A stretch of DNA of 50,365 nucleotides from a virus. The stretch covers positions 1-50,365 of IMG/VR virus record IMGVR_UViG_3300033149_001247; one strand, given 5' to 3'. Within the stretch, counting starts at the first letter, position 1. Each line of letters opens with the position of its first letter. The position numbers and the translations under genes were made by a program. Positions 9,400-44,687 of this stretch are shown in pieces. Below the pieces are notes generated by a model that was given only the letters and a program-made list of their open reading frames with translations, had not been told where the DNA came from and ran no database searches.

Positions 9400-9530
9400 T
9401 TAAAATCTTACCTTAGATTCTATGATTGGTTCTTGTTTCACTGAGGTTGCCAACGATGTCACTGCTGGTCTTATATCCTCTCCGCAAGCGTTTGAGACTA
9501 GAGTCTCCAGTTCCGGCGGGACTCGCCGTA
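9400..9530 (-). ncRNA. Putative omega-RNA scaffold region of TnpB copy 1
   Basis: The last ~130 bp of tnpB copy 1 contain a stretch (about 9437-9500) that aligns without gaps to the end of tnpB copy 2 at roughly three identical bases in four (47 of 64 by eye). The two proteins elsewhere look much more diverged. Shared blocks are GAGAGGAT, TAAGACCA and ATCGTTGGC. In IS605-family elements the omega-RNA scaffold overlaps the 3' end of tnpB, so this conservation is taken as the scaffold core. Ends and guide are not determined. Confidence 0.4.
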
Positions 9531-10647
9531 CTGCTAAACTTTTAAGATTCTGTGCAGCATTGAAGTCCCTATCTAACACTGCTCCACAATTACAGACCCA
9601 TACTCTATTTGATAACTTCAGTCCAGAGTTAATATAACCACAATGTCTACATAACTTACTAGATGGGAAAAATCTATCAGCAATTATTAGTTCCTCGCCA
9701 GCCCATAGTGTTTTGTACTCTAGTTGTCTTCTAAACTCAGCCCAACTTACATCGCTAATAGCCTGTGCTAAATAATGATTCTTAATCATCCCCGCAACAT
9801 TTAAGTCTTCTATAACAATTGTGCCCGGTCGTTTCTTATCAGGCTCGGTTTTTGCTACAATGGTGGAGGTAGCCTTATGGAGAATATCTCTACGTATACA
9901 GCTTATTTGGTAGTAAGCCTTAGCTAATTTCTTTCTTGTCTTTTCTCTATTTTTACTACCCTTTTCTCTTCGTGCAAGTTCTCGTTGTAATCGTTTAAGC
10001 TTGTGTTGGGCTTTCTTGAGGGTTTTAGGGTTCTCAAATTGCTGACCATTACTGCAAACTGCAAGCGTCTTAATTCCTAAATCTACACCAATGGGTTCAC
10101 CTATTGCCTGTGTGACCTCAATCTCTTCTCTACATTGAACACTAACAAACCAATGTCCCGCTTTCTCAGACATAGTGGCAGATAGAATATGAATACCTTC
10201 AGTAGGAATATAATCACACTCTTTTAGCCTAAGCCAGCCTATACGCGGAAGCCTAATTCGTCTATTTTCAACTCGGATAGTACTACCCGTTAGCCGAAAA
10301 CTATTAGCATTATGTTTCTTAGACTTAAACTTGGGAAGACCCACTTTTTCACCATTCTTTATACATCGGAAGAAATTTTGGTATGCCCTATCGAGGTTAC
10401 GCAAAGCTTCTTGGGGGATACATTTAGAGTAATTATATAACCAAGGATATGTGGTCTTTTTCAAGGCATTTAGCTGTCGATTTTGTTCAACAAAGTTACT
10501 TGATTTGCCAATATTCTTATATTCTTGTTTGCGTTGGCCTAATCCCCAATTCCAAGCCCATCTTGCTACGCCAGCGCATTGTAACAATAGAGTGCGTTGC
10601 TTATTATTTAAGTCAAGCTCAACTTTGTAACCTCTAAAAATTTCCAT
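9400..10647 (-). CDS. tnpB: TnpB-type RNA-guided nuclease (IS605/IS1341-like), copy 1
   Basis: 415 residues. RuvC-like acidic residues are present: D189 in GVDLGIKT, E280 in VIEDLNVAGM and D361 in DRDFNAAQ. A zinc ribbon lies between them (CRHCG at 333-337, CNCG at 352-355). TnpB proteins are transposon-encoded omega-RNA-guided DNA endonucleases. No TnpA lies beside it. The C-terminal tail ending VKQEP is poorly structured, as expected where the omega-RNA is encoded over the 3' end of the gene. It sits directly between two YTG-module genes, with only 9 bp between the upstream YTG stop and its ATG. Confidence 0.9.
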   Translation of the reverse strand: MEIFRGYKVELDLNNKQRTLLLQCAGVARWAWNWGLGQRKQEYKNIGKSSNFVEQNRQLNALKKTTYPWLYNYSKCIPQEALRNLDRAYQNFFRCIKNGEKVGLPKFKSKKHNANSFRLTGSTIRVENRRIRLPRIGWLRLKECDYIPTEGIHILSATMSEKAGHWFVSVQCREEIEVTQAIGEPIGVDLGIKTLAVCSNGQQFENPKTLKKAQHKLKRLQRELARREKGSKNREKTRKKLAKAYYQISCIRRDILHKATSTIVAKTEPDKKRPGTIVIEDLNVAGMIKNHYLAQAISDVSWAEFRRQLEYKTLWAGEELIIADRFFPSSKLCRHCGYINSGLKLSNRVWVCNCGAVLDRDFNAAQNLKSLAVRRVPPELETLVSNACGEDIRPAVTSLATSVKQEPIIESKVRF

Positions 10648-14568: not shown

Positions 14569-14591
14569 GCTCAAGGCTAAAGCGCCTGAGC
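14569..14591 (-). repeat. IS605-type right-end hairpin candidate with bulged T
   Basis: On the minus strand the sequence folds as GCTCA-GGC / GCC-T-TGAGC with a six-base loop and one unpaired T in the 3' arm. It spans the end of tnpB copy 2. IS200/IS605 ends are imperfect subterminal hairpins with an extruded T, so this is a good candidate for the right end of the element. The exact cleavage site is not called. Confidence 0.45.
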
Positions 14592-14700
14592 TTCTGGCTT
14601 CGACGAGGCCGCCAACGATAATGCCGTTGGTCTTACATCCTCTCCACCAGCGTGAGTTCCGGCAACTCCTGCCGTACCAAATAACTCAATGTTTATTGCT
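14577..14700 (-). ncRNA. Putative omega-RNA scaffold region of TnpB copy 2
   Basis: The 3' end of tnpB copy 2 (about 14591-14654) carries GAGAGGAT, TAAGACCA and ATCGTTGGC blocks at the same spacing as copy 1. Conservation at base level without gaps, between otherwise divergent genes, fits an RNA constraint. The downstream end probably lies at or beyond the hairpin at 14569-14591. The guide sequence is not determined. Confidence 0.4.
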
Positions 14701-15767
14701 GCATTTTCGTCTCGGTCATGGATAACCCCACATTCAGGACATACCCATTCTCGATCCGAAAGTTTTAACAATCCATTGATATAACCACAATGATGACAAC
14801 GCTTAGATGAAGGAAAGAATCTATCAACTTGGCTAATCTGACAGCCATACCATTTACCTTTATAAGAAAGCTGACGAATAAATTCTCCCCACCCCGCATC
14901 GGCAATAGACTTAGCGAGACAGTGATTCCGCATCATATTCTTCACGGCTAGGGACTCAGCATAGATAACTTGATTTTCATTAACTAGCTTACGAGTCAAT
15001 TTGTGAAGAAAGTCATTACGCTGATTCTTTACTTTCTCATGTTGCCTAGCAAGGACAAGTCGCGCTTTTTCCCAACCATTAGAACCCTTTTTACAACGAG
15101 ATAACCGCCGCTGCAATCGCCTCAGCCGTTTTTCGGCCTTACGAAGATATTGAGGGGCTTTTACTCGTTCACCCTTAGATGTAACAATAAAATCCTTAAG
15201 TCCTAAATCAATACCAATTATGTCGCCATTATACTCTGGCTCAAGAATCTCATCTTCACATAAAATGGAGGCAAAATACTTATCAGTCTTGGTTTGAGAA
15301 ATAACAACATGCTTCATTTTGCCTGTGATGGGTCGATGGATGGTCATACTAACTAGGCCAGGGACTTTAGGGAGACGTAATTTGCCATCCTTAATCCAGA
15401 ACCTCTGTGGTACACGAAAAGATTGCTTGCCTCGCTTACTCTTGAATCTTGGGAAACTGGCTCGACGCTTAAAGAAATTTACATATGCTGTATCAAGATC
15501 ACGCAAAGATTGCTGAAGTGATTGTGAATTGATTTCACTAAGCCAAGTATAATCAGGTTTATGCTTAAGGTCAGTCAACATCTGAGATGTGTCATAATAA
15601 TTTAGACCCTTTTTGCCATCACCACTTTTGTTGGCTATATAATAGTCAATTCGCTCACGCAAGAAATAGTTATAGACAAAACGGCAACATCCAAATTGTT
15701 TAGCAAATACTTCTTGTTGATCCTTGTTAGGATAGAGTCGAAACTTATAGGCTCGTCTAATCTTCAT
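14577..15767 (-). CDS. tnpB: TnpB-type RNA-guided nuclease, copy 2
   Basis: 396 residues from ATG 15767. RuvC-like acidic residues are D187 (GIDLGLKD), E271 (VIYAESLAV) and D353 (DRDENAAIN). The zinc ribbon is CHHCG (324-328) and CPECG (343-347). The N-terminus [17 protein letters not shown] is typical of the family. It is a different lineage from copy 1, judging by the N-terminal region and insertions. A perfect sigma-70 promoter ends 7 bp before the ATG, so the mRNA should be leaderless. No TnpA is nearby. An upstream in-frame start would run through the promoter and is rejected. Confidence 0.9.
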
Positions 15768-15774
15768 GCTTACA

Positions 15775-15803
15775 ATTATAGCGTTGTTTTTGTAACCTGT
15801 CAA
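15775..15803 (-). promoter_or_regulatory. Perfect sigma-70 promoter of tnpB copy 2
   Basis: Minus strand TTGACA (15798-15803), 17 bp spacer, TATAAT (15775-15780). The expected start site falls at or one base before the tnpB ATG at 15767, which predicts a leaderless transcript. Confidence 0.8.
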
Positions 15804-16678: not shown

Positions 16679-16701
16679 GGGTTTCCTTATTAGATAAAAG
16701 A

Positions 16702-16797
16702 GCATAGGGCTGGAGTCGAACCAGCTAGTTTGTTTCCACCCGGGAATTGTATCTTCGTTTCCACCAGGAACTTGTGTCCACTACGCCTCGCCCATGC
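16702..16797 (-). tRNA. tRNA-like gene, oversized, anticodon unclear
   Basis: Minus-strand sequence has a 7-bp acceptor stem (GCATGGG with CCTATGC, one G-T pair) and a perfect T arm (GCTGG-TTCGACT-CCAGC). The body is 96 nt because a ~24-nt segment occurs twice in tandem (16750-16774 and 16726-16749, both containing GGTGGAAAC). The segment has the length of an anticodon arm plus variable loop; with one copy removed the gene would have normal tRNA length. No anticodon stem of five pairs is visible. It may be a pseudo-tRNA or a class II-like tRNA. Confidence 0.45.
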
Positions 16798-16884
16798 TCA
16801 ATTTTTTATATGTGTGACTTCCGGTTTGTGACTGGCCGCTAAAGGATACGATGGCCTTGGGTGTAGTCCTCACCATTTTATTAA

Positions 16885-16919
16885 CCCGCGGGTCAGAGCC
16901 GTACGTCCACTTCGCTACA
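16885..16919 (-). other. tRNA-Gln-like D and anticodon half (CUG)
   Basis: Minus-strand sequence TGTAGCGAAGTGGACG followed by CGG-CTCTGAC-CCG resembles the D arm and anticodon arm of a tRNA-Gln with anticodon CUG. No matching acceptor stem or TTCRA-type T loop follows; a GGTG/CACC hairpin with loop AGGACTA lies at 16859-16873 instead. It is probably a decayed or interrupted tRNA. Nothing else was identified in 16798-16969. Confidence 0.25.
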
Positions 16920-16969
16920 ATTGGAGGTTACCATATTCCTGCACTCAGTCTAAAAGATATCACACACAG

Positions 16970-17042
16970 TGGATCGACAGAGATTTGAACTCTGAACCCT
17001 CGGACCGCAAAACCGATGCTCTCCCGTTAGAGCTACCGACCC
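16970..17042 (-). tRNA. tRNA-Ala (UGC)
   Basis: A 73-nt cloverleaf: acceptor GGGTCGG/TCGATCC, D arm GCTC/GAGC, anticodon arm TCGGT-TTTGCGG-TCCGA (the pair next to the loop is T-T), T arm CAGAG-TTCAAAT-CTCTG, discriminator A. The anticodon is TGC. The acceptor has G3-T70, the known identity pair for alanyl-tRNA synthetase, which independently supports Ala. No encoded CCA. Confidence 0.85.
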
Positions 17043-17135
17043 ATTTATATCCACATTCAGTCCCATGTTCACATGGAGCCTACCTAGTTAGCAGAACATT
17101 ATAAAGTGTCCCTGGGCCTAGGCATTTGATAAAAG

Positions 17136-28478: not shown

Positions 28479-28517
28479 GCTGTTTCCTGTCATAGAAAGG
28501 CTTATGTTGCAGCTTTC

Positions 28518-28724
28518 ATAGCCGCACCCAGAAATACTCTATTAAAAAACAGTCGCAGATTCTCTCTAAGTATAGCCGATTATGTCGCCGAAGTCAATAG
28601 TTGCTAGACAATAAAGAAGAGAGAAAAGTGGTTAACTCTTCTCTCTCCTTCTTGACACTAGTAGCTTATTAGCCCATTAGTGTCAAACCCTGTTTTTCAA
28701 CAGAGCATTTCTGGGTGCGGCTAT
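28518..28724 (-). ncRNA. Structured leader RNA closed by a 35-bp stem
   Basis: The arms 28518-28552 and 28690-28724 are inverted repeats identical at 32 of 35 positions. All three differences become G-U pairs in a minus-strand RNA, but A-C mismatches in a plus-strand RNA. Inside are two further hairpins: 28618-28646 (12-bp stem, again with one G-U only on the minus strand) and 28652-28686 (TTGACACTA/TAGTGTCAA). A promoter ends next to the outer stem. The transcript leads into the macro-domain gene 40 bp later. It may be a free RNA or a regulatory 5' leader. Confidence 0.6.
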
Positions 28725-28753
28725 AGATTATCATACTTAGCTGCTTTTGTCAA
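28725..28753 (-). promoter_or_regulatory. Sigma-70 promoter of the structured leader
   Basis: Minus strand TTGACA (28748-28753), 17 bp, TAATCT (28725-28730); GATAAT two bases earlier is an alternative -10. Predicted start near 28718, inside the first arm of the 35-bp stem. Confidence 0.65.
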
Positions 28754-28763
28754 GCGTTACCAG

Positions 28764-28796
28764 ACATAAGAAAAAGGAGAAGCCTAAACTTCTCCT
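28764..28796 (-). terminator. Intrinsic terminator after the major capsid gene
   Basis: On the minus strand AGGAGAAG and CTTCTCCT form an 8-bp stem with a 6-base loop, followed by TTTTTCTT. It lies about 30 bp after the major capsid protein stop codon. Confidence 0.8.
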
Positions 28797-28828
28797 CTTT
28801 CTCTATACTATTTATATCTAGTTCTATG

Positions 28829-31515: not shown

Positions 31516-32103
31516 CTATTCATCAGCCGTGAATTGATAACGTCCTTTTATCCATTCTTCTTGTGGCGTAAAAGTAAAAGAATTATCAACTTGAGTATAC
31601 CCCACGCGATAGTAAGCGTCCCACTCATCCCATGTGTCTACTATTACAGCGTCATCAAGAACCTCACTAACATAATGTTGTGGGCCGCCGTCGCTGGCTG
31701 CTATGCTGCCGAATTCTTTATTAAAGGCATTTGACACACCAGTAATAGTGCGACTATAGCTAATAGACTTAAGAGACTTCTTTCCTTGTGCCTGTGCCTT
31801 TTGCAATCTAGCCCTAATCTTATCTTGAAGGCTTTGAGAGATAACCTTACCGTCACATTTTACTTGATTAAGACGGGAAAGTGCATTATTAACATGCGAC
31901 AAATCAATCTTGCCCTCAGCATCTTTATAGGGCAACTTTCTAAGACTCAAGGGAAAGGTTTTGCCATCCTTCTTGGAGCCCCCCTTACAAATATGAGCAA
32001 AACTCCCATCGGGAAGGCTAGAAACGTAAGTGCTGTCCCACTTCTTTTTCTCTCTGACTAATACTTCTCGCAATTTAACTTGAAGCTCTAACTTCTCTGT
32101 CAT
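31516..32103 (-). CDS. Head-region protein with LPDGSFA...LPY...NALSRL domain
   Basis: 195 residues. SSLPDGSFAHICKGG, KTFPLSLRKLPYKDAEGKID and HVNNALSRLNQVK match a small conserved domain commonly encoded beside portal and protease genes in phages and sometimes fused to them. The C-terminal 70 residues are acidic and aromatic. It overlaps the portal gene by ATGA. It is likely a virion or assembly protein; exact role unknown. Confidence 0.65.
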   Translation of the reverse strand: MTEKLELQVKLREVLVREKKKWDSTYVSSLPDGSFAHICKGGSKKDGKTFPLSLRKLPYKDAEGKIDLSHVNNALSRLNQVKCDGKVISQSLQDKIRARLQKAQAQGKKSLKSISYSRTITGVSNAFNKEFGSIAASDGGPQHYVSEVLDDAVIVDTWDEWDAYYRVGYTQVDNSFTFTPQEEWIKGRYQFTADE

Positions 32104-33635
32104 TCTGTTTTCTCCTCTGCTACTTCTGCCGTTTTCACAGGTGCTTCTACTACCAATTCGGTATCTTCCGAAGGCCGATAAGACTTAGCAATCTCTGGCA
32201 ACTCCATTTTCTGTGGTACTACATATCGACCTTTGTATTTCTGGTCATAGATGATCTGGCCATGTTTGTCCAATATTATGTAGCCACCATCTGCTGCCCA
32301 ATCTATGCTTTTACCACCAGTCATTTTCCCAGCAATATCACTCTCAACAAAAACTAATCCAGCATCCATGTCGGGGGGAATAACGCCACTTCGGAGAAGT
32401 AATGCCTTACCTTCCCCTGCATCCATTACACCAGCATCTATCATGTCTGTAACATTCTCTATTTCTCTAGCATGAAGGTCAGCTAGTCCCAGCCTATCCT
32501 CAGCGTCCATCATGCCAAACTTGAACAGGACACCTGGGGGCAAGACAAATGTGTTGATAGCTCGCTCTACAGCGGCTATGATTACAGCGGGGAACTTACC
32601 CTTGGCCTTCTGCGCTTGAATCCAAGCAGAGGCTTTAGTTGCGCCAACATGCTCTATCTGCCAGAACTCATTAACATCTACTCCAAAGGCTAAGGCTAGT
32701 GTCTTTGCGTAAACGTCCACCGTGACCTTCTTGTCAAATTGGTCTGGTAAGCCAGCAAATGAGATGAGTTCTATAGAGACTTTGCCCGGGCCGCCCGTTG
32801 CGCCAGGATTACCTATCAGCCATAGAATCCCTGGATAGATTAAGTTACCGCGATTCTCTCTGCCCATTTTATACAGCTTCATGGCATCACGGAATTGCCT
32901 GGGGGTTAATCCGGTTACGGCAGCTATACCATTAGGGGGCAAGTCAGATAGCTTCTCTCGCTCATATTGATTAACCAGAATAAGTATCTGGGCGGCGTTA
33001 ATAGCTCTTGATACAGCGCAGTAACCGTAGTTATTCATGGCTACATTAGCAGAGGGCAAAGAACAGATATGACTTACTGATGTACGAGGCATCTTGTGCC
33101 AACTGCCTGCAACGTCGCGGTATTTTACAGGGTAATCCCAATCGCCAGTAAGATTACACTCATAAGAGTCCATATTAAAAAGTCCCTGAACTGGCCCATT
33201 CTTAATCTTGCTACCGAACTCTATAAATGCACCCTTGTCTTGTGTAAGATAATCTAATAGGAACTTAGACAAGAATGTGTCCCAGTCTTTGCCATCAGAT
33301 TCACGAAGAATACTAGCATAGCGGGCGACTTTGTTGCGACCACCACTAATTGTCCAACCGAGACCAATGATTTTAGCTACTGCTGAGTGAACAGCACCAG
33401 CCAAGATAGACTCCTTTTTCCAGAAGTCGCGTAGCCATTTCTCTCGCTTCTGAGTACCCCACTGCGGAATACCGTCGCTTCTGTCAGCTAGCCATGTGAT
33501 ATACTGGAAAGCGTCATCAGTATCTTTATCAAAACGATCCTGTACTGAGATAGTGCTGGGGCGCTTAGTTCCTTGACCTCTAGTCTTCTGGTTCTGTAAT
33601 CTCTGTGCTTGTAGCCACTGTTGGAACTCTGCCAT
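32100..33635 (-). CDS. Portal protein
   Basis: 511 residues. WLRDFWKKESILAGAVHSAVAKI, YLTQDKGAFIEFG and a C-terminal half with VDVNEFWQIEHVGATKASAWIQ are typical of SPP1/HK97-like portal subunits, twelve of which form the DNA channel at one capsid vertex. The position between terL and the protease fits. The last ~35 residues are disordered and acidic with SYRPSEDTELVVE, echoing the scaffold tail. It starts within the preceding 87-residue gene. Confidence 0.85.
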   Translation of the reverse strand: MAEFQQWLQAQRLQNQKTRGQGTKRPSTISVQDRFDKDTDDAFQYITWLADRSDGIPQWGTQKREKWLRDFWKKESILAGAVHSAVAKIIGLGWTISGGRNKVARYASILRESDGKDWDTFLSKFLLDYLTQDKGAFIEFGSKIKNGPVQGLFNMDSYECNLTGDWDYPVKYRDVAGSWHKMPRTSVSHICSLPSANVAMNNYGYCAVSRAINAAQILILVNQYEREKLSDLPPNGIAAVTGLTPRQFRDAMKLYKMGRENRGNLIYPGILWLIGNPGATGGPGKVSIELISFAGLPDQFDKKVTVDVYAKTLALAFGVDVNEFWQIEHVGATKASAWIQAQKAKGKFPAVIIAAVERAINTFVLPPGVLFKFGMMDAEDRLGLADLHAREIENVTDMIDAGVMDAGEGKALLLRSGVIPPDMDAGLVFVESDIAGKMTGGKSIDWAADGGYIILDKHGQIIYDQKYKGRYVVPQKMELPEIAKSYRPSEDTELVVEAPVKTAEVAEEKTE

Positions 33636-33843
33636 AATCTGTTTCTACCTTTGCTATATAATCCAGCATCTTGATATACCATCTGAATAATCTGTGCTTC
33701 GTTTGCTCAATAATCCATAAACGGAGGAATAGTTTTGTTGCCTGGAAGAAGTTAGAGAAGTTGAACAGGGGAATAGGAATAATGTTTTCATCTAAAAGTT
33801 GTGATACTTGCTGCATATCTTGCTGTACATCTTGCTCAGACAT
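33580..33843 (-). CDS. Hypothetical protein upstream of portal
   Basis: 87 residues from ATG 33843 (AAGGAG 6 bp upstream). Acidic start (SEQDVQQDMQQVSQLLDEN), hydrophobic centre (FSNFFQATKLFLRLWII), and a C-terminal helix. It overlaps the portal start by 56 bp. The promoter at 33872-33900 lies just before it. Possibly a head-assembly accessory; not a recognisable small terminase. Confidence 0.5.
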   Translation of the reverse strand: MSEQDVQQDMQQVSQLLDENIIPIPLFNFSNFFQATKLFLRLWIIEQTKHRLFRWYIKMLDYIAKVETDYGRVPTVATSTEITEPED

Positions 33844-33871
33844 AGCTACTCCTTGATTACCTGTTGTCATA

Positions 33872-33900
33872 ATAATAATCTAAATATAGTTATATGTCAA
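33872..33900 (-). promoter_or_regulatory. Sigma-70 promoter of the portal unit
   Basis: Minus strand TTGACA (33895-33900), 17 bp, TATTAT (33872-33877). Confidence 0.75.
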
Positions 33901-33937: not shown

Positions 33938-34000
33938 TGTAAAACTACTACATATATAGAGCTATGCTATTTCGCATAATGTATATGTCGTAGTTTTACA
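33938..34000. repeat. 63-bp palindrome containing a half-dif (XerC arm) sequence
   Basis: Arms 33938-33956 and 33982-34000 match at 18 of 19 positions; a small TATGC/GCATA stem lies in the loop. The plus strand at 33973-33986 reads CGCATAATGTATAT, identical to 14 consecutive bases of the E. coli dif site, and the four bases before it (ATTT) also fit the dif consensus for the XerC arm. The XerD arm side is degenerate. No T-run follows the hairpin on either strand, so it is not a standard terminator. It could be a Xer recombination or dimer-resolution site. Confidence 0.5.
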
Positions 34001-34020: not shown

Positions 34021-35367
34021 CTAGAAGATATATCCCCCTCCTGCACCTTCGTCATAGTCTCCCTCCAGTGAGCACAATACAGCAGCGTCTGCGAAGTCGG
34101 GACTGCGGCCTAGCTTCTTCCTTATCAGTGGTTTCGGATCCATCAACTTACGCCCCTGCCTATCAAAATCATATGTCTGCGCAGTAAGTTCTAAGAGTAA
34201 ATCAGGATGATCGGGGATTGACCTGTCGCCAGTGACAATTCTTCGCGCCAGTTGAGCATAGGCATATGCGCGAGTATTAGCGAACCTTCTATCAGGCGGA
34301 GTTTTCTTAAAGTTAATGTTCTCTACGTTGAACTCACCCTCTAGTAACATATTGTCATATATCCCAGCGCCGTAACCTATGCCATCAATGTTAATTATAT
34401 CTGGCATAACTTGCCTAGCAATATCCTTAATGCGCCCTTCAGTATAAGATAATAAGGTGTTAGACCATGACTCTATCCTAGTGCCAATAGTCTTACCGGT
34501 ACGCACCATGACGACATTCTTATCTCCCCCTAAGCGAGCGATGTCAACCCCCATAATAATAGGATCTACGTCAGGCAATTCCAGCCCTATGGCTTCTTCT
34601 AGCTTCTGTGAGTCAAAGACATATAGTACATCGCCAGAACTGTCTACGAATTCACCTAATACCTGAGTTTTGTATTCCACCGGATCGGTAATGCTATCAA
34701 TATATTCTTTGTCTACTCTCGGCGAGTCTAACCCCGATGTATGGAATAATTCATATCCAGGGATTTTTCTTTCAAAGATGTCGCGAAAGTAGCAAGCATG
34801 GGGATGGCGCGGGGGAGTACTTAGTACTAATATCTTGGCATACTTTGTAGTTAAACAACCAGCGATACTGTTAAAAGTTGCTCTTGTAACTAGCTTGGCC
34901 TCATCAACAATAAACAGTATATGTTCAGCGTGGAATCCTTCTAGTTTTTCGGGGTCATTAGATGACTCCCCTACAGCAAACCAGTATTTACTAAGATAAA
35001 TACCTAGCTTCTGAGGATCAATAGAGGAATCATCAAAGCCTAATTTGGTAAAGTCAATTCTACTATACCACTTATGAACTTCTGGCCATAGCATCTTGGC
35101 CACTTGTCGCCAGTTAGATGCTGTAGTAACAGTGTTAGACTCATAAAAAAGAAGTGTGTGCCAAAGAACAATCCATGCGGCCAATCCAGTTTTGCCAACG
35201 CCGCGCCCTGCTCTCCACGCCACTTTAGACCGAGGCTTACCAGCAACTGCATCCATTACTTCAACCTGGTAATCTTCTGGCTCAGCCCCTATTACTTCTT
35301 TAACAAATAGAGCAGGATTACGTCGGTATGTTATTAGGCGTTGCGCTAGCTCAGGTGTGATACTCAT
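34021..35367 (-). CDS. terL: Terminase large subunit
   Basis: 448 residues. ATPase: Walker A-like RAGRGVGKT (52-60), Walker B ILFIVDEAK (150-158), coupling motif LSTPP. RNase H-fold nuclease: D275 in GVDIARLGGD, D328 in NIDGIGYG, D427 in SPDFADA. It pumps DNA into the prohead and cuts the concatemer. The start is placed at ATG 35367 (MSITPELAQRLI) because the same 12 residues are repeated at 42761-42796; ATG 35394 in the same frame is the alternative. Neither start has a strong ribosome site. Confidence 0.95.
   Translation of the reverse strand: MSITPELAQRLITYRRNPALFVKEVIGAEPEDYQVEVMDAVAGKPRSKVAWRAGRGVGKTGLAAWIVLWHTLLFYESNTVTTASNWRQVAKMLWPEVHKWYSRIDFTKLGFDDSSIDPQKLGIYLSKYWFAVGESSNDPEKLEGFHAEHILFIVDEAKLVTRATFNSIAGCLTTKYAKILVLSTPPRHPHACYFRDIFERKIPGYELFHTSGLDSPRVDKEYIDSITDPVEYKTQVLGEFVDSSGDVLYVFDSQKLEEAIGLELPDVDPIIMGVDIARLGGDKNVVMVRTGKTIGTRIESWSNTLLSYTEGRIKDIARQVMPDIINIDGIGYGAGIYDNMLLEGEFNVENINFKKTPPDRRFANTRAYAYAQLARRIVTGDRSIPDHPDLLLELTAQTYDFDRQGRKLMDPKPLIRKKLGRSPDFADAAVLCSLEGDYDEGAGGGYIF
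35332..35367 (-). repeat. terL 5' end, copy A of a 36-bp direct repeat
   Basis: The first 12 codons of terL recur at 42761-42796 with 33 of 36 bases identical; the three differences are synonymous. Confidence 0.85.
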
Positions 35368-35406
35368 ACTAAGAGTATAACTGAAAACGGTCATTACGTC
35401 AACCAA

Positions 35407-38157
35407 TTATGACGGTGCGCCAACTCCCATAATAGGCAATCTTGGAGCAGTCGGTGGCATAGATATACTAGTGCTGGTGCTACTTGAACTACTGCTAGAA
35501 CTGCTAGAGCTAGATGACGAAGACGAGCTACTGCTACTGGAGCTGCTACTAGAGGATGATGAAGAACTGCTGCTGCTTGATGAAGAACTACTACTTGATG
35601 AACTAGAACTAGACGAAGATAATGACGAGCTTGATGAAGAAGAACTCGAAGATGATGACGATGATGACGAGGAGGAAGAACTACTAGATGAGGAGCTACT
35701 TGATGATGAACTAGAGCTACTAGAGCTACTTGATGAGCTGCTACTAGAACTGCTAGAGCTTGAACTGGAGGACGATGAACTTGAGCTGCTACTACTGCTC
35801 GACGAGCTTGAGCTTGAACTACTAGAGCTTGAAGAACTTGATGATGAAGACGAGCTACTTGATGAAGAGCTTGAGCTAGACGAACTGCTCGATGAGCTAG
35901 AGCTGCTTGACAATGAACTTGAAGACGAACTGGATGAACTAGAAGAACTTGAAGATGACGAGCTGCTGGACGACGAAGATGAGCTACTACTACTAGAACT
36001 GCTACTTGAGGATGAGCTAGAACTTGAGGAGCTGCTGCTTGAGCTTGACGAGGATGAGCTGCTACTTGAGCTTGATGAACTAGAACTGGAGCTACTCGAA
36101 GAACTACTACTAGACGAACTCGATGATGAACTACTTGAACTAGATGAAGATGAGCTACTGGACGAGGATGACGAACTAGAAGACGAGCTACTAGACGAAG
36201 AGCTTGAACTAGAGCTACTGCTCGATGAAGAGCTTGAGCTACTACTGCTAGAACTGCTGCTTGACGAAGATGACGAGGAACTAGAGCTACTACTACTAGA
36301 TGAACTCGAAGAACTGGATGATGACGAACTGCTGCTACTCGAACTAGAGCTACTGGAGCTAGACGAGCTGGAACTAGATGACGAAGAACTTGATGAAGAG
36401 CTGCTACTTGACGAACTGGAGCTTGAACTACTACTGGAACTTGACGAACTGCTAGAAGACGAAGATGAACTTGACGAGCTGCTGCTGGAGCTACTACTAG
36501 AAGACGAGCTACTGCTCGATGAGCTGGATGACGAACTTGAACTTGACGAGCTACTCGAAGACGAGGAACTTGAACTAGAAGACGAGCTACTTGATGAGGA
36601 ACTACTAGACGAGGAGCTACTAGAGCTACTGCTACTGGAACTACTACTTGAGCTGCTACTTGATGAAGATGAGCTTGACGAAGATGAACTACCAGTGCTA
36701 TATTCAATGTGGAGTTTTGCACCCGATACGTTGCCAGAAGATTCATAGGTGAGACATCTAGTAACTTTGAGTGCATCTGTCTTCCCAATGAACATGAAGG
36801 CCATATTGTTATTAGCCGACCATGATCCCCTATCTACTATTTCCTGAACAACAAGCTTGAGGCTGGGTGACTGTTTCCACCCAGTGCCGAGGCCGTCCTG
36901 TACCCAGGCCGCTGATTCTGCCGTCCGCGCCCTAGACCAAAGGGTATCATCACTGAAATCTACAGCACTGTCAACATCATTGCCATAAATGTCCATGTTA
37001 ATGTCGTCATATGTATCATTACTAATATAGATTTCTATATAAGCAACATCAATGGTAGCGCCTTGTGCAACATTGACAGTCTGAAATCTTACACCTCCTC
37101 CTTTATAAGCGTTATTCGCTACGTCTGTATTTGACTGAAGCTCCATAACGGTATTGGTAATAGCACTATAATAGTACTCACCCTCCCAGACATACCATCT
37201 AGTTGTATCATCATTCCCTTCCCCTACCTGCTCATCTATATCGGGGTCGAAGATAATAGTGCCTTCCGGCAGAGCATTGAGCGCAAGGACAGGCGCACCG
37301 ACCAGCAGATAGTGCTTGTCGTTCTTCTTGATGAACCGCTTGCGCAGATGAACCTGTATCGGCTCATCGTTCTCGTCAACAGGTTCGCCCTCGGGCCACG
37401 CCTTGCTCGCAGGCAGTGCGGTGATTATCTCATCTTGATGGTTTTTGAGATACAGTCTAGTCGCTCGCTCAAAATCAGAATCCTTATCTATATTGCCCTC
37501 GTCATCAGCCAGCCCTGGCACTTGTCCCCAACCTACTTCGTAGACCATGACCAGATATGTATCAGCGGCAGGATATGGTGGGTGAGGCATTGCATCCCTG
37601 GCGGCTTGGCTGACCTTTATCTCCTCATGCAACTTATCACCAGAGATGTGTATCTCAAAGTCCACGCCAGGGAAGAGGTCGGCCCAAGTCAGTTTGCCCG
37701 TCGGATTCGGAAGCAGAGCATTCCCGTGGTCAATTGCTTCCGCGCTGGGTGTCCCATAACTGGCCTCGCGGATGGTCGTATATTCCTTCGTGGCTATGTT
37801 AAGGTACGCTATGCGGTCAAGTCTAAGTCCGATCCCCACGCCCTTCTTTTCAGCGGCGAACCAGCCACCGTTTCTGGCTAGGAATCGCCAGTGGGACTTC
37901 TGCATCTCCCAATCCCAGCCAGGCTCGTCACTGGGTACTATGCGCGGGTCTACGTCAAGCCACTGGCCTGAACCTTCTACTTCCTCATAGTGTAGAGAAC
38001 CAATCGTGGCATCTAAGGAATACTGTCCAGTAGGATTCCCGTTAATGTGAAGGTGTTTCGTCTTGGACGTGCGGGTACGTCTGGCCGAGATTTCACGCCA
38101 TTCTTCATTCCACTCAAATTCAGGGGAACCCTCTGCCAGAAAATGTTTCTTAGCCAA
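35407..38157 (-). CDS. Giant polyserine appendage protein
   Basis: 916 residues from TTG 38157 (GAGGG upstream). Residues 1-320 are a mixed domain with many Trp and charged residues. Residues about 325-488 form a beta-rich domain (GVRFQTVNVAQGATIDVAYIEI, LKLVVQEIVDRGSW, AKLHIEY) resembling carbohydrate-binding-like beta-sandwiches of extracellular proteins. Residues 490-893 are almost pure serine, broken by only two Leu. A short tail (PPTAPRLPIMGVGAPS) follows. The tract uses all six Ser codons. It is probably an exposed virion fibre or appendage. The long ORFs on the opposite strand and in the second minus frame are by-products of the codons. Confidence 0.8.
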   Translation of the reverse strand: MAKKHFLAEGSPEFEWNEEWREISARRTRTSKTKHLHINGNPTGQYSLDATIGSLHYEEVEGSGQWLDVDPRIVPSDEPGWDWEMQKSHWRFLARNGGWFAAEKKGVGIGLRLDRIAYLNIATKEYTTIREASYGTPSAEAIDHGNALLPNPTGKLTWADLFPGVDFEIHISGDKLHEEIKVSQAARDAMPHPPYPAADTYLVMVYEVGWGQVPGLADDEGNIDKDSDFERATRLYLKNHQDEIITALPASKAWPEGEPVDENDEPIQVHLRKRFIKKNDKHYLLVGAPVLALNALPEGTIIFDPDIDEQVGEGNDDTTRWYVWEGEYYYSAITNTVMELQSNTDVANNAYKGGGVRFQTVNVAQGATIDVAYIEIYISNDTYDDINMDIYGNDVDSAVDFSDDTLWSRARTAESAAWVQDGLGTGWKQSPSLKLVVQEIVDRGSWSANNNMAFMFIGKTDALKVTRCLTYESSGNVSGAKLHIEYSTGSSSSSSSSSSSSSSSSSSSSSSSSSSSSSSSSSSSSSSSSSSSSSSSSSSSSSSSSSSSSSSSSSSSSSSSSSSSSSSSSSSSSSSSSSSSSSSSSSSSSSSSSSSSSSSSSSSSSSSSSSSSSSSSSSSSSSSSSSSSSSSSSSSSSSSSSSSSSSSSSSSSSSSSSSSSSSSSSSSSSSSSSSSSSSSSSSSSSSSSSSSSSSSSSSSSSSSSSSSSSSSSSSSSSSSSSSSSSSSSSSSSSSSSSSSSSSSSSSSSLSSSSSSSSSSSSSSSSSSSSSSSSSSSSSSSSSSSSSSSSSSSSSSSSSSSSSSSSSSSSSSSSSSSSSSSSSSSSSSSSSSSSSSSSSSSSSSSSLSSSSSSSSSSSSSSSSSSSSSSSSSSSSSSSSSSSSSSSSSSSSSSSTSTSISMPPTAPRLPIMGVGAPS
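35479..36690 (-). repeat. DNA encoding a ~404-residue serine homopolymer
   Basis: About 404 codons of AGC, AGT, TCA, TCC, TCG and TCT in mixed order. Two single-base changes give Leu (TCG to TTG and TCA to TTA). There is no exact tandem unit at base level, so it is a protein-level rather than DNA-level repeat. Confidence 0.95.
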
Positions 38158-42722: not shown

Positions 42723-42796
42723 ATTAAACTCCCGTTTCCTAGGTAGACGCTAGTTGTTGCTATTAGGCGTTGTGCTAGCTCAGGTGTGATAGACAT
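42704..42796 (-). CDS. 30-residue peptide carrying the TerL N-terminus
   Basis: Begins directly after the beta-helix gene stop (TAAATG) and encodes MSITPELAQRLI, exactly the first 12 residues of TerL, then 18 unrelated residues. The copied segment differs from terL at three bases, all synonymous, including Ser AGT versus TCT. It overlaps the start of the zinc-finger gene. It could be a decoy or regulator of the terminase, or a relic of a recombination event. Confidence 0.4.
   Translation of the reverse strand: MSITPELAQRLIATTSVYLGNGSLICPLKQ
42761..42796 (-). repeat. terL 5' end, copy B of a 36-bp direct repeat
   Basis: 33 of 36 bases match 35332-35367. The repeat ends abruptly after the codon for Ile12. 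Confidence 0.85.
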
Positions 42797-44661: not shown

Positions 44662-44687
44662 ATAATAAACTAACTATAAGTTGTCAA
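44659..44687 (-). promoter_or_regulatory. Perfect sigma-70 promoter of the spike cluster
   Basis: Minus strand TTGACA (44682-44687), 17 bp, TATAAT (44659-44664). The predicted start at about 44652 lies inside the terminator stem, so its own transcripts lack most of the 5' arm and should escape termination. Confidence 0.85.

Follow-up and report, generated by a model that had tools for sequence, protein, structure and literature searches.

The end of terL and its surroundings

The window, i.e. the whole stretch of 50,365 bases that was analysed, is the record of an uncultured virus. This virus, a tailed phage with double-stranded DNA, has a G+C content of 44%, and most of its genes are carried by the minus strand. 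The features around the end of the terminase gene are, in the direction of the coding strand:

34021–35406, minus strand: terL, terminase large subunit (phrog_2, E 2e-37)
33938–34000: imperfect palindrome of 63 bp with 19-nt arms, one mismatch, and an inner 5-bp hairpin (TATGC/GCATA)
33872–33900, minus strand: sigma70-type promoter TTGACA-17-TATTAT (11/12), downstream of the hairpin on the coding strand
33580–33843, minus strand: small gene after terL; its ATG (33843) is preceded by AAGGAG, and the mechanical ORF starts at 33870
32100–33635, minus strand: putative portal gene, assigned by position, with 37% identity to the equivalently placed gene of a distant relative (L013)

The gap between terL and the small gene, which is followed by the putative portal gene, comprises 177 bp. 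The initial annotation had placed a palindrome right after terL, and it is indeed located in this gap, just past the terL stop. Its arms (33938–33956 and 33982–34000, with 25 nt between them) form 18 of 19 pairs, a value that was not reached by any of 40 random sequences with the same dinucleotide make-up (maximum 17), and it is the best short-range inverted repeat in the window. The fold of the RNA from the minus (transcribed) strand has an energy of −24.4 kcal/mol (z −5.1). The structure has the general properties of a stem-loop at an mRNA 3′-end, i.e. it is stable, intergenic, placed at a gene end, and present on the transcribed strand. As an intrinsic terminator it scores poorly, with −30 on the coding strand and −32 on the other strand; the U-run has a length of only four, and the stem is A+T-rich. 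Rfam searches yielded nothing near threshold. No second copy of the hairpin or of an arm exists anywhere in the window, and a REP element or an IS605 end was rejected on this ground.

On the coding strand, the terL stop is followed by the hairpin, the promoter, the AAGGAG motif, and the ATG at 33843. The window contains more promoter matches of 11/12 or better than expected (eight, at seven sites, versus 1.35), and all but one of the seven sites belong to the coding strand. Perfect TTGACA-17-TATAAT promoters are present three times on the coding (minus) strand, at 44687, 31486, and 15803; the phage apparently depends on the sigma70 of its host.

The end of the putative capsid gene (28494–28828) shares the order found at the terL junction, i.e. 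gene stop, stem-loop, sigma70 promoter, next gene. In contrast to the A+T-rich terL hairpin with its poor U-run and its score of −30, the capsid-gene hairpin has a G+C-rich stem with a U-run and a terminator score of +16. Because the terL hairpin occupies the same kind of place as the capsid terminator, but has such a poor score, we call it a gene-border stem-loop, the exact role of which is uncertain and can only be inferred. Between the putative capsid gene and the one that follows, there is a 207-bp element (28518–28724) bounded by 35-nt inverted repeats (91%); it contains two further hairpins and a promoter-like site, and resembles a MITE or a structured RNA.

Several additional features of the phage were observed. 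Translation of terL possibly begins at an internal ATG near 35367. A sequence of 34 nt at the start of the gene (35329–35362) recurs with 94% identity at 42758–42791, where the second copy reads ATGTCTATCACACCTGAGCTAGC; this repeat is either a recombination scar or a partial duplication, and it hints that terL begins at the internal ATG (MSITPELAQRL). A long, highly repetitive region (35471–36700), made up of recurring short codon units, is present in the ORF of 916 amino acids that adjoins terL. The phage encodes two different TnpB proteins (IS200/IS605 RNA-guided endonuclease; 9400–10647 and 14577–15803), and no TnpA transposase was seen. The region 16700–17060 contains a tRNA-Ala (ARAGORN) and apparently two more tRNA-like sequences that the program did not call. 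As had been noted before, no integrase gene was seen in the window, a statement that applies to ORFs of about 195 amino acids or more and to a record that may be a fragment.

A half-dif sequence within the palindrome

Bacteria use the dif site to separate joined chromosomes, and the outer positions of dif differ between species. The loop and the right arm of the palindrome contain the following two features:

33969–33986, plus strand: half-dif, i.e. XerC arm ATTTCGCATAA, centre TGTATA, and the first base of the XerD arm
33986–33996, plus strand: position of the XerD arm, degenerate (TGTCGTAGTTT), coinciding with the right arm of the palindrome

The half-dif (ATTTCGCATAATGTATAT) is identical at 18 of 18 positions to dif-like sites from Xanthomonadales, Acinetobacter, Pasteurellaceae, and Methylophilaceae, covering their XerC arm, their centre, and the first base of their XerD arm. 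In the chromosomes of these groups, ATTTCGCATAATGTATAT with an adjoining TATGT is frequent, so that XerC arm and centre have the identity to proteobacterial chromosomes that characterizes Xer sites of the TLCphi/GGI type. The 48 published proteobacterial dif sites of Table 1 in PMC2731167 were used as reference. The longest exact run versus these sites is 18 nt, while none of 100 random windows reached this value (maximum 16). The run corresponds to the opposite strand of the X. campestris dif, where the same half-site serves as the XerD arm. With the same reference, XerC arm and centre score 22.2 bits, compared with a maximum of 19.5 bits in 100 random windows, and the expected number of such scores per window is 1.6e-4, a value that has to be read for a motif picked out among many possible ones, in a window chosen for carrying one.

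The fit of the XerC arm and centre to dif is thus better than had been claimed in the initial annotation. The 14 bases identical to the E. coli dif, which had also been pointed out, are exact at 33973–33986 (CGCATAATGTATAT); such a run is only mildly unusual, because 5 of 200 random windows reach it. The XerD side had been described as degenerate, in agreement with its score of −14 bits and the lack of the conserved XerD arm TTATGTTAAAT. Together with a whole-site score at chance level, this rules out a complete dif of 28 bp with both arms. Likewise, the match of the whole site to the E. coli dif (18/28) is at chance level, as the best site in 183 of 200 random windows reaches it.

The half-site in other viral contigs and the relatives of the phage

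When 2.9 million viral contigs were scanned for copies of the 18-mer in which the next base does not fit dif, 21 further contigs were found, all of which have G+C contents of 60–62%. Most of them share the right flank CGTGCAAGGC, and all ten that were tested encode Zot, a morphogenesis protein of filamentous phages. No tailed phage was recognised among the 21 contigs. About 3.6 chance copies of the 18-mer are expected in 40 Gb, the estimated size of the collection. Taken together with the ten Zot-encoding contigs, this indicates that the 18-mer is usually a true Xer half-site and that a stray chance copy would be unsurprising. In one contig (L080), a distance of 6.6 kb separates the half-site from a full-arm site with the same orientation, an arrangement expected for the termini of a filamentous phage after integration. 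In the Zot-bearing filamentous class (L040, L080, L102, and L252–L264), ATTTCGCATAATGTATAT is followed by CGTGCAAGGC and, about 20–30 nt further on, by an inverted copy GCCTGCACG, a candidate for a uniform attachment-site architecture of this class. Exact 16-base half-sites in three other large contigs (L032, L051, and L054) are inside long ORFs and therefore probably due to chance. A search of viral contigs for the palindrome arms, GTAAAACTAC...GTAGTTTTAC, yielded six matches, all of them unrelated chance matches, three of which represent one repeated gene.

Queries with TerL, portal, and capsid identified one near-identical contig (L003), which ends inside terL, and the distant relative L013, the sample of which is from Lake Tanganyika according to the papers. 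L013 has no detectably similar terL, no such hairpin, and no such half-dif site. No relative spanning the hairpin was found with the TerL, portal, capsid, or left-arm queries, and an exact 22-mer of the left arm had no match. A capsid relative was absent from bacterial genome contigs and from 369 genomes of one class, a search that would miss an uncultured host. The DNA of the window did not match any of 19 candidate-host genomes.

Readings of the palindrome and comparison with known Xer-using systems

Rather than an Xer site, we tentatively favor an ordinary stem-loop at a gene border that resembles half a dif by coincidence. Its probability is roughly 0.45, a value that, like the grading of the other readings, is a judgement and was not computed. 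The stem-loop would belong to the 3′ untranslated region of the terL mRNA, downstream of the terL stop and ahead of the promoter for the next late unit, and would shape the 3′ terminus of this message or protect it, by weak or factor-assisted termination or by processing. We infer this action as RNA, and also that the 18-base half-dif is a coincidence within an A+T-rich palindrome, from a transcribed-strand stem-loop far beyond chance, the order of the elements from the terL stop to the ATG, the surplus of near-consensus promoters on the coding strand, the succession of terminator and promoter at the capsid gene, and the lack of temperate signs, i.e. no integrase in the larger ORFs and no relative in bacterial genomes. 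The poor terminator score, with the short U-run and the A+T-rich stem, argues against it, and none of the relatives found shows a stem kept by compensatory changes. The rarity of the half-dif score and the Xer-type filamentous nature of all ten tested half-site contigs also speak against a coincidence. Alternatively, the half-dif may be an attachment site. An integrase-less tailed phage would then have host XerC/XerD insert its genome at dif, by double-stranded recombination of the TLCphi/GGI type, and the palindrome would be incidental or accessory. We regard this as unlikely. The exact 18-base match in an intergenic position, the 21 viral contigs in which this half-site likewise lacks a XerD sequence on its right, the layout shared with TLCphi and GGI, and the failure to see an integrase gene speak for it. 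TLCphi and GGI sites work with a degenerate XerD arm, so that its absence here does not exclude function. However, bacterial genomes yielded no relative, the distant relative L013 lacks the site, no tailed phage with the half-site was recognised in the viral collection or in the open literature searched, and the 16-base half-sites inside long ORFs suggest that such matches arise by chance. As many windows and motifs were read first, and tailed Xer phages are at best very rare in the scanned collection, the two readings are closer than the value of 1.6e-4 suggests. Of the earlier proposal that host XerC/D are used, the half-dif in the TLCphi/GGI layout stands, while a role in attachment or dimer resolution remains a candidate that may reflect chance.

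The long, near-perfect arms adjoining a strong promoter are also compatible with a dyad operator, i.e. two inverted 19-bp sites at which a regulator of the promoter 33900–33872 would bind double-stranded DNA. This is slightly less probable still than the attachment site, because the arm has no second copy anywhere in the window, the position about 70–135 bp upstream of the transcription start is far for a repressor, and no regulator was identified nearby. In CTXphi, two dif-like sites about 90 nt apart pair, with both arms on the stem (PMC4246890, PMC5357621). An equivalent folded single-strand site, with a hairpin that mimics dif and XerC acting on the folded strand, had been suggested by analogy, and the stable hairpin does contain the half-dif. 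The terminal loop, however, includes the outer XerC arm (ATTTC), the stem of the folded strand has no XerD arm, and the virus is a tailed phage with a double-stranded genome, making a CTX-type site highly improbable.

If the half-dif is an Xer site, a tailed phage without its own integrase would borrow the chromosome-dimer machinery, which in these scans and in the open literature searched was seen only in filamentous and other non-tailed phages and island-like elements. If it is not, the palindrome offers a yardstick, showing that an A+T-rich hairpin can give rise to 18 bases identical to a recombination half-site.

CTXphi attP(+) likewise has dif-like sequence in a foldable strand, but the XerC arm is here partly in the loop. 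The sites of the Zot-bearing filamentous phages (ATTTCGCATAATGTATAT|CGTGCAAGGC) have the identical 18-mer without the XerD arm; in contrast, their genomes have 60–62% G+C, and the right flank differs, with the inverted copy downstream, whereas in this phage it is on the other side of the half-site. The attP of TLCphi and the difGGI of the gonococcal genomic island combine a dif-like XerC arm and centre with a degenerate XerD arm (PMC4246890, PMC5357621). Although the candidate site described here lies in the late region of a tailed phage, inside a 63-bp palindrome, it has the same XerC arm and centre as dif, a similarly degenerate XerD arm, and no element-encoded integrase seen.
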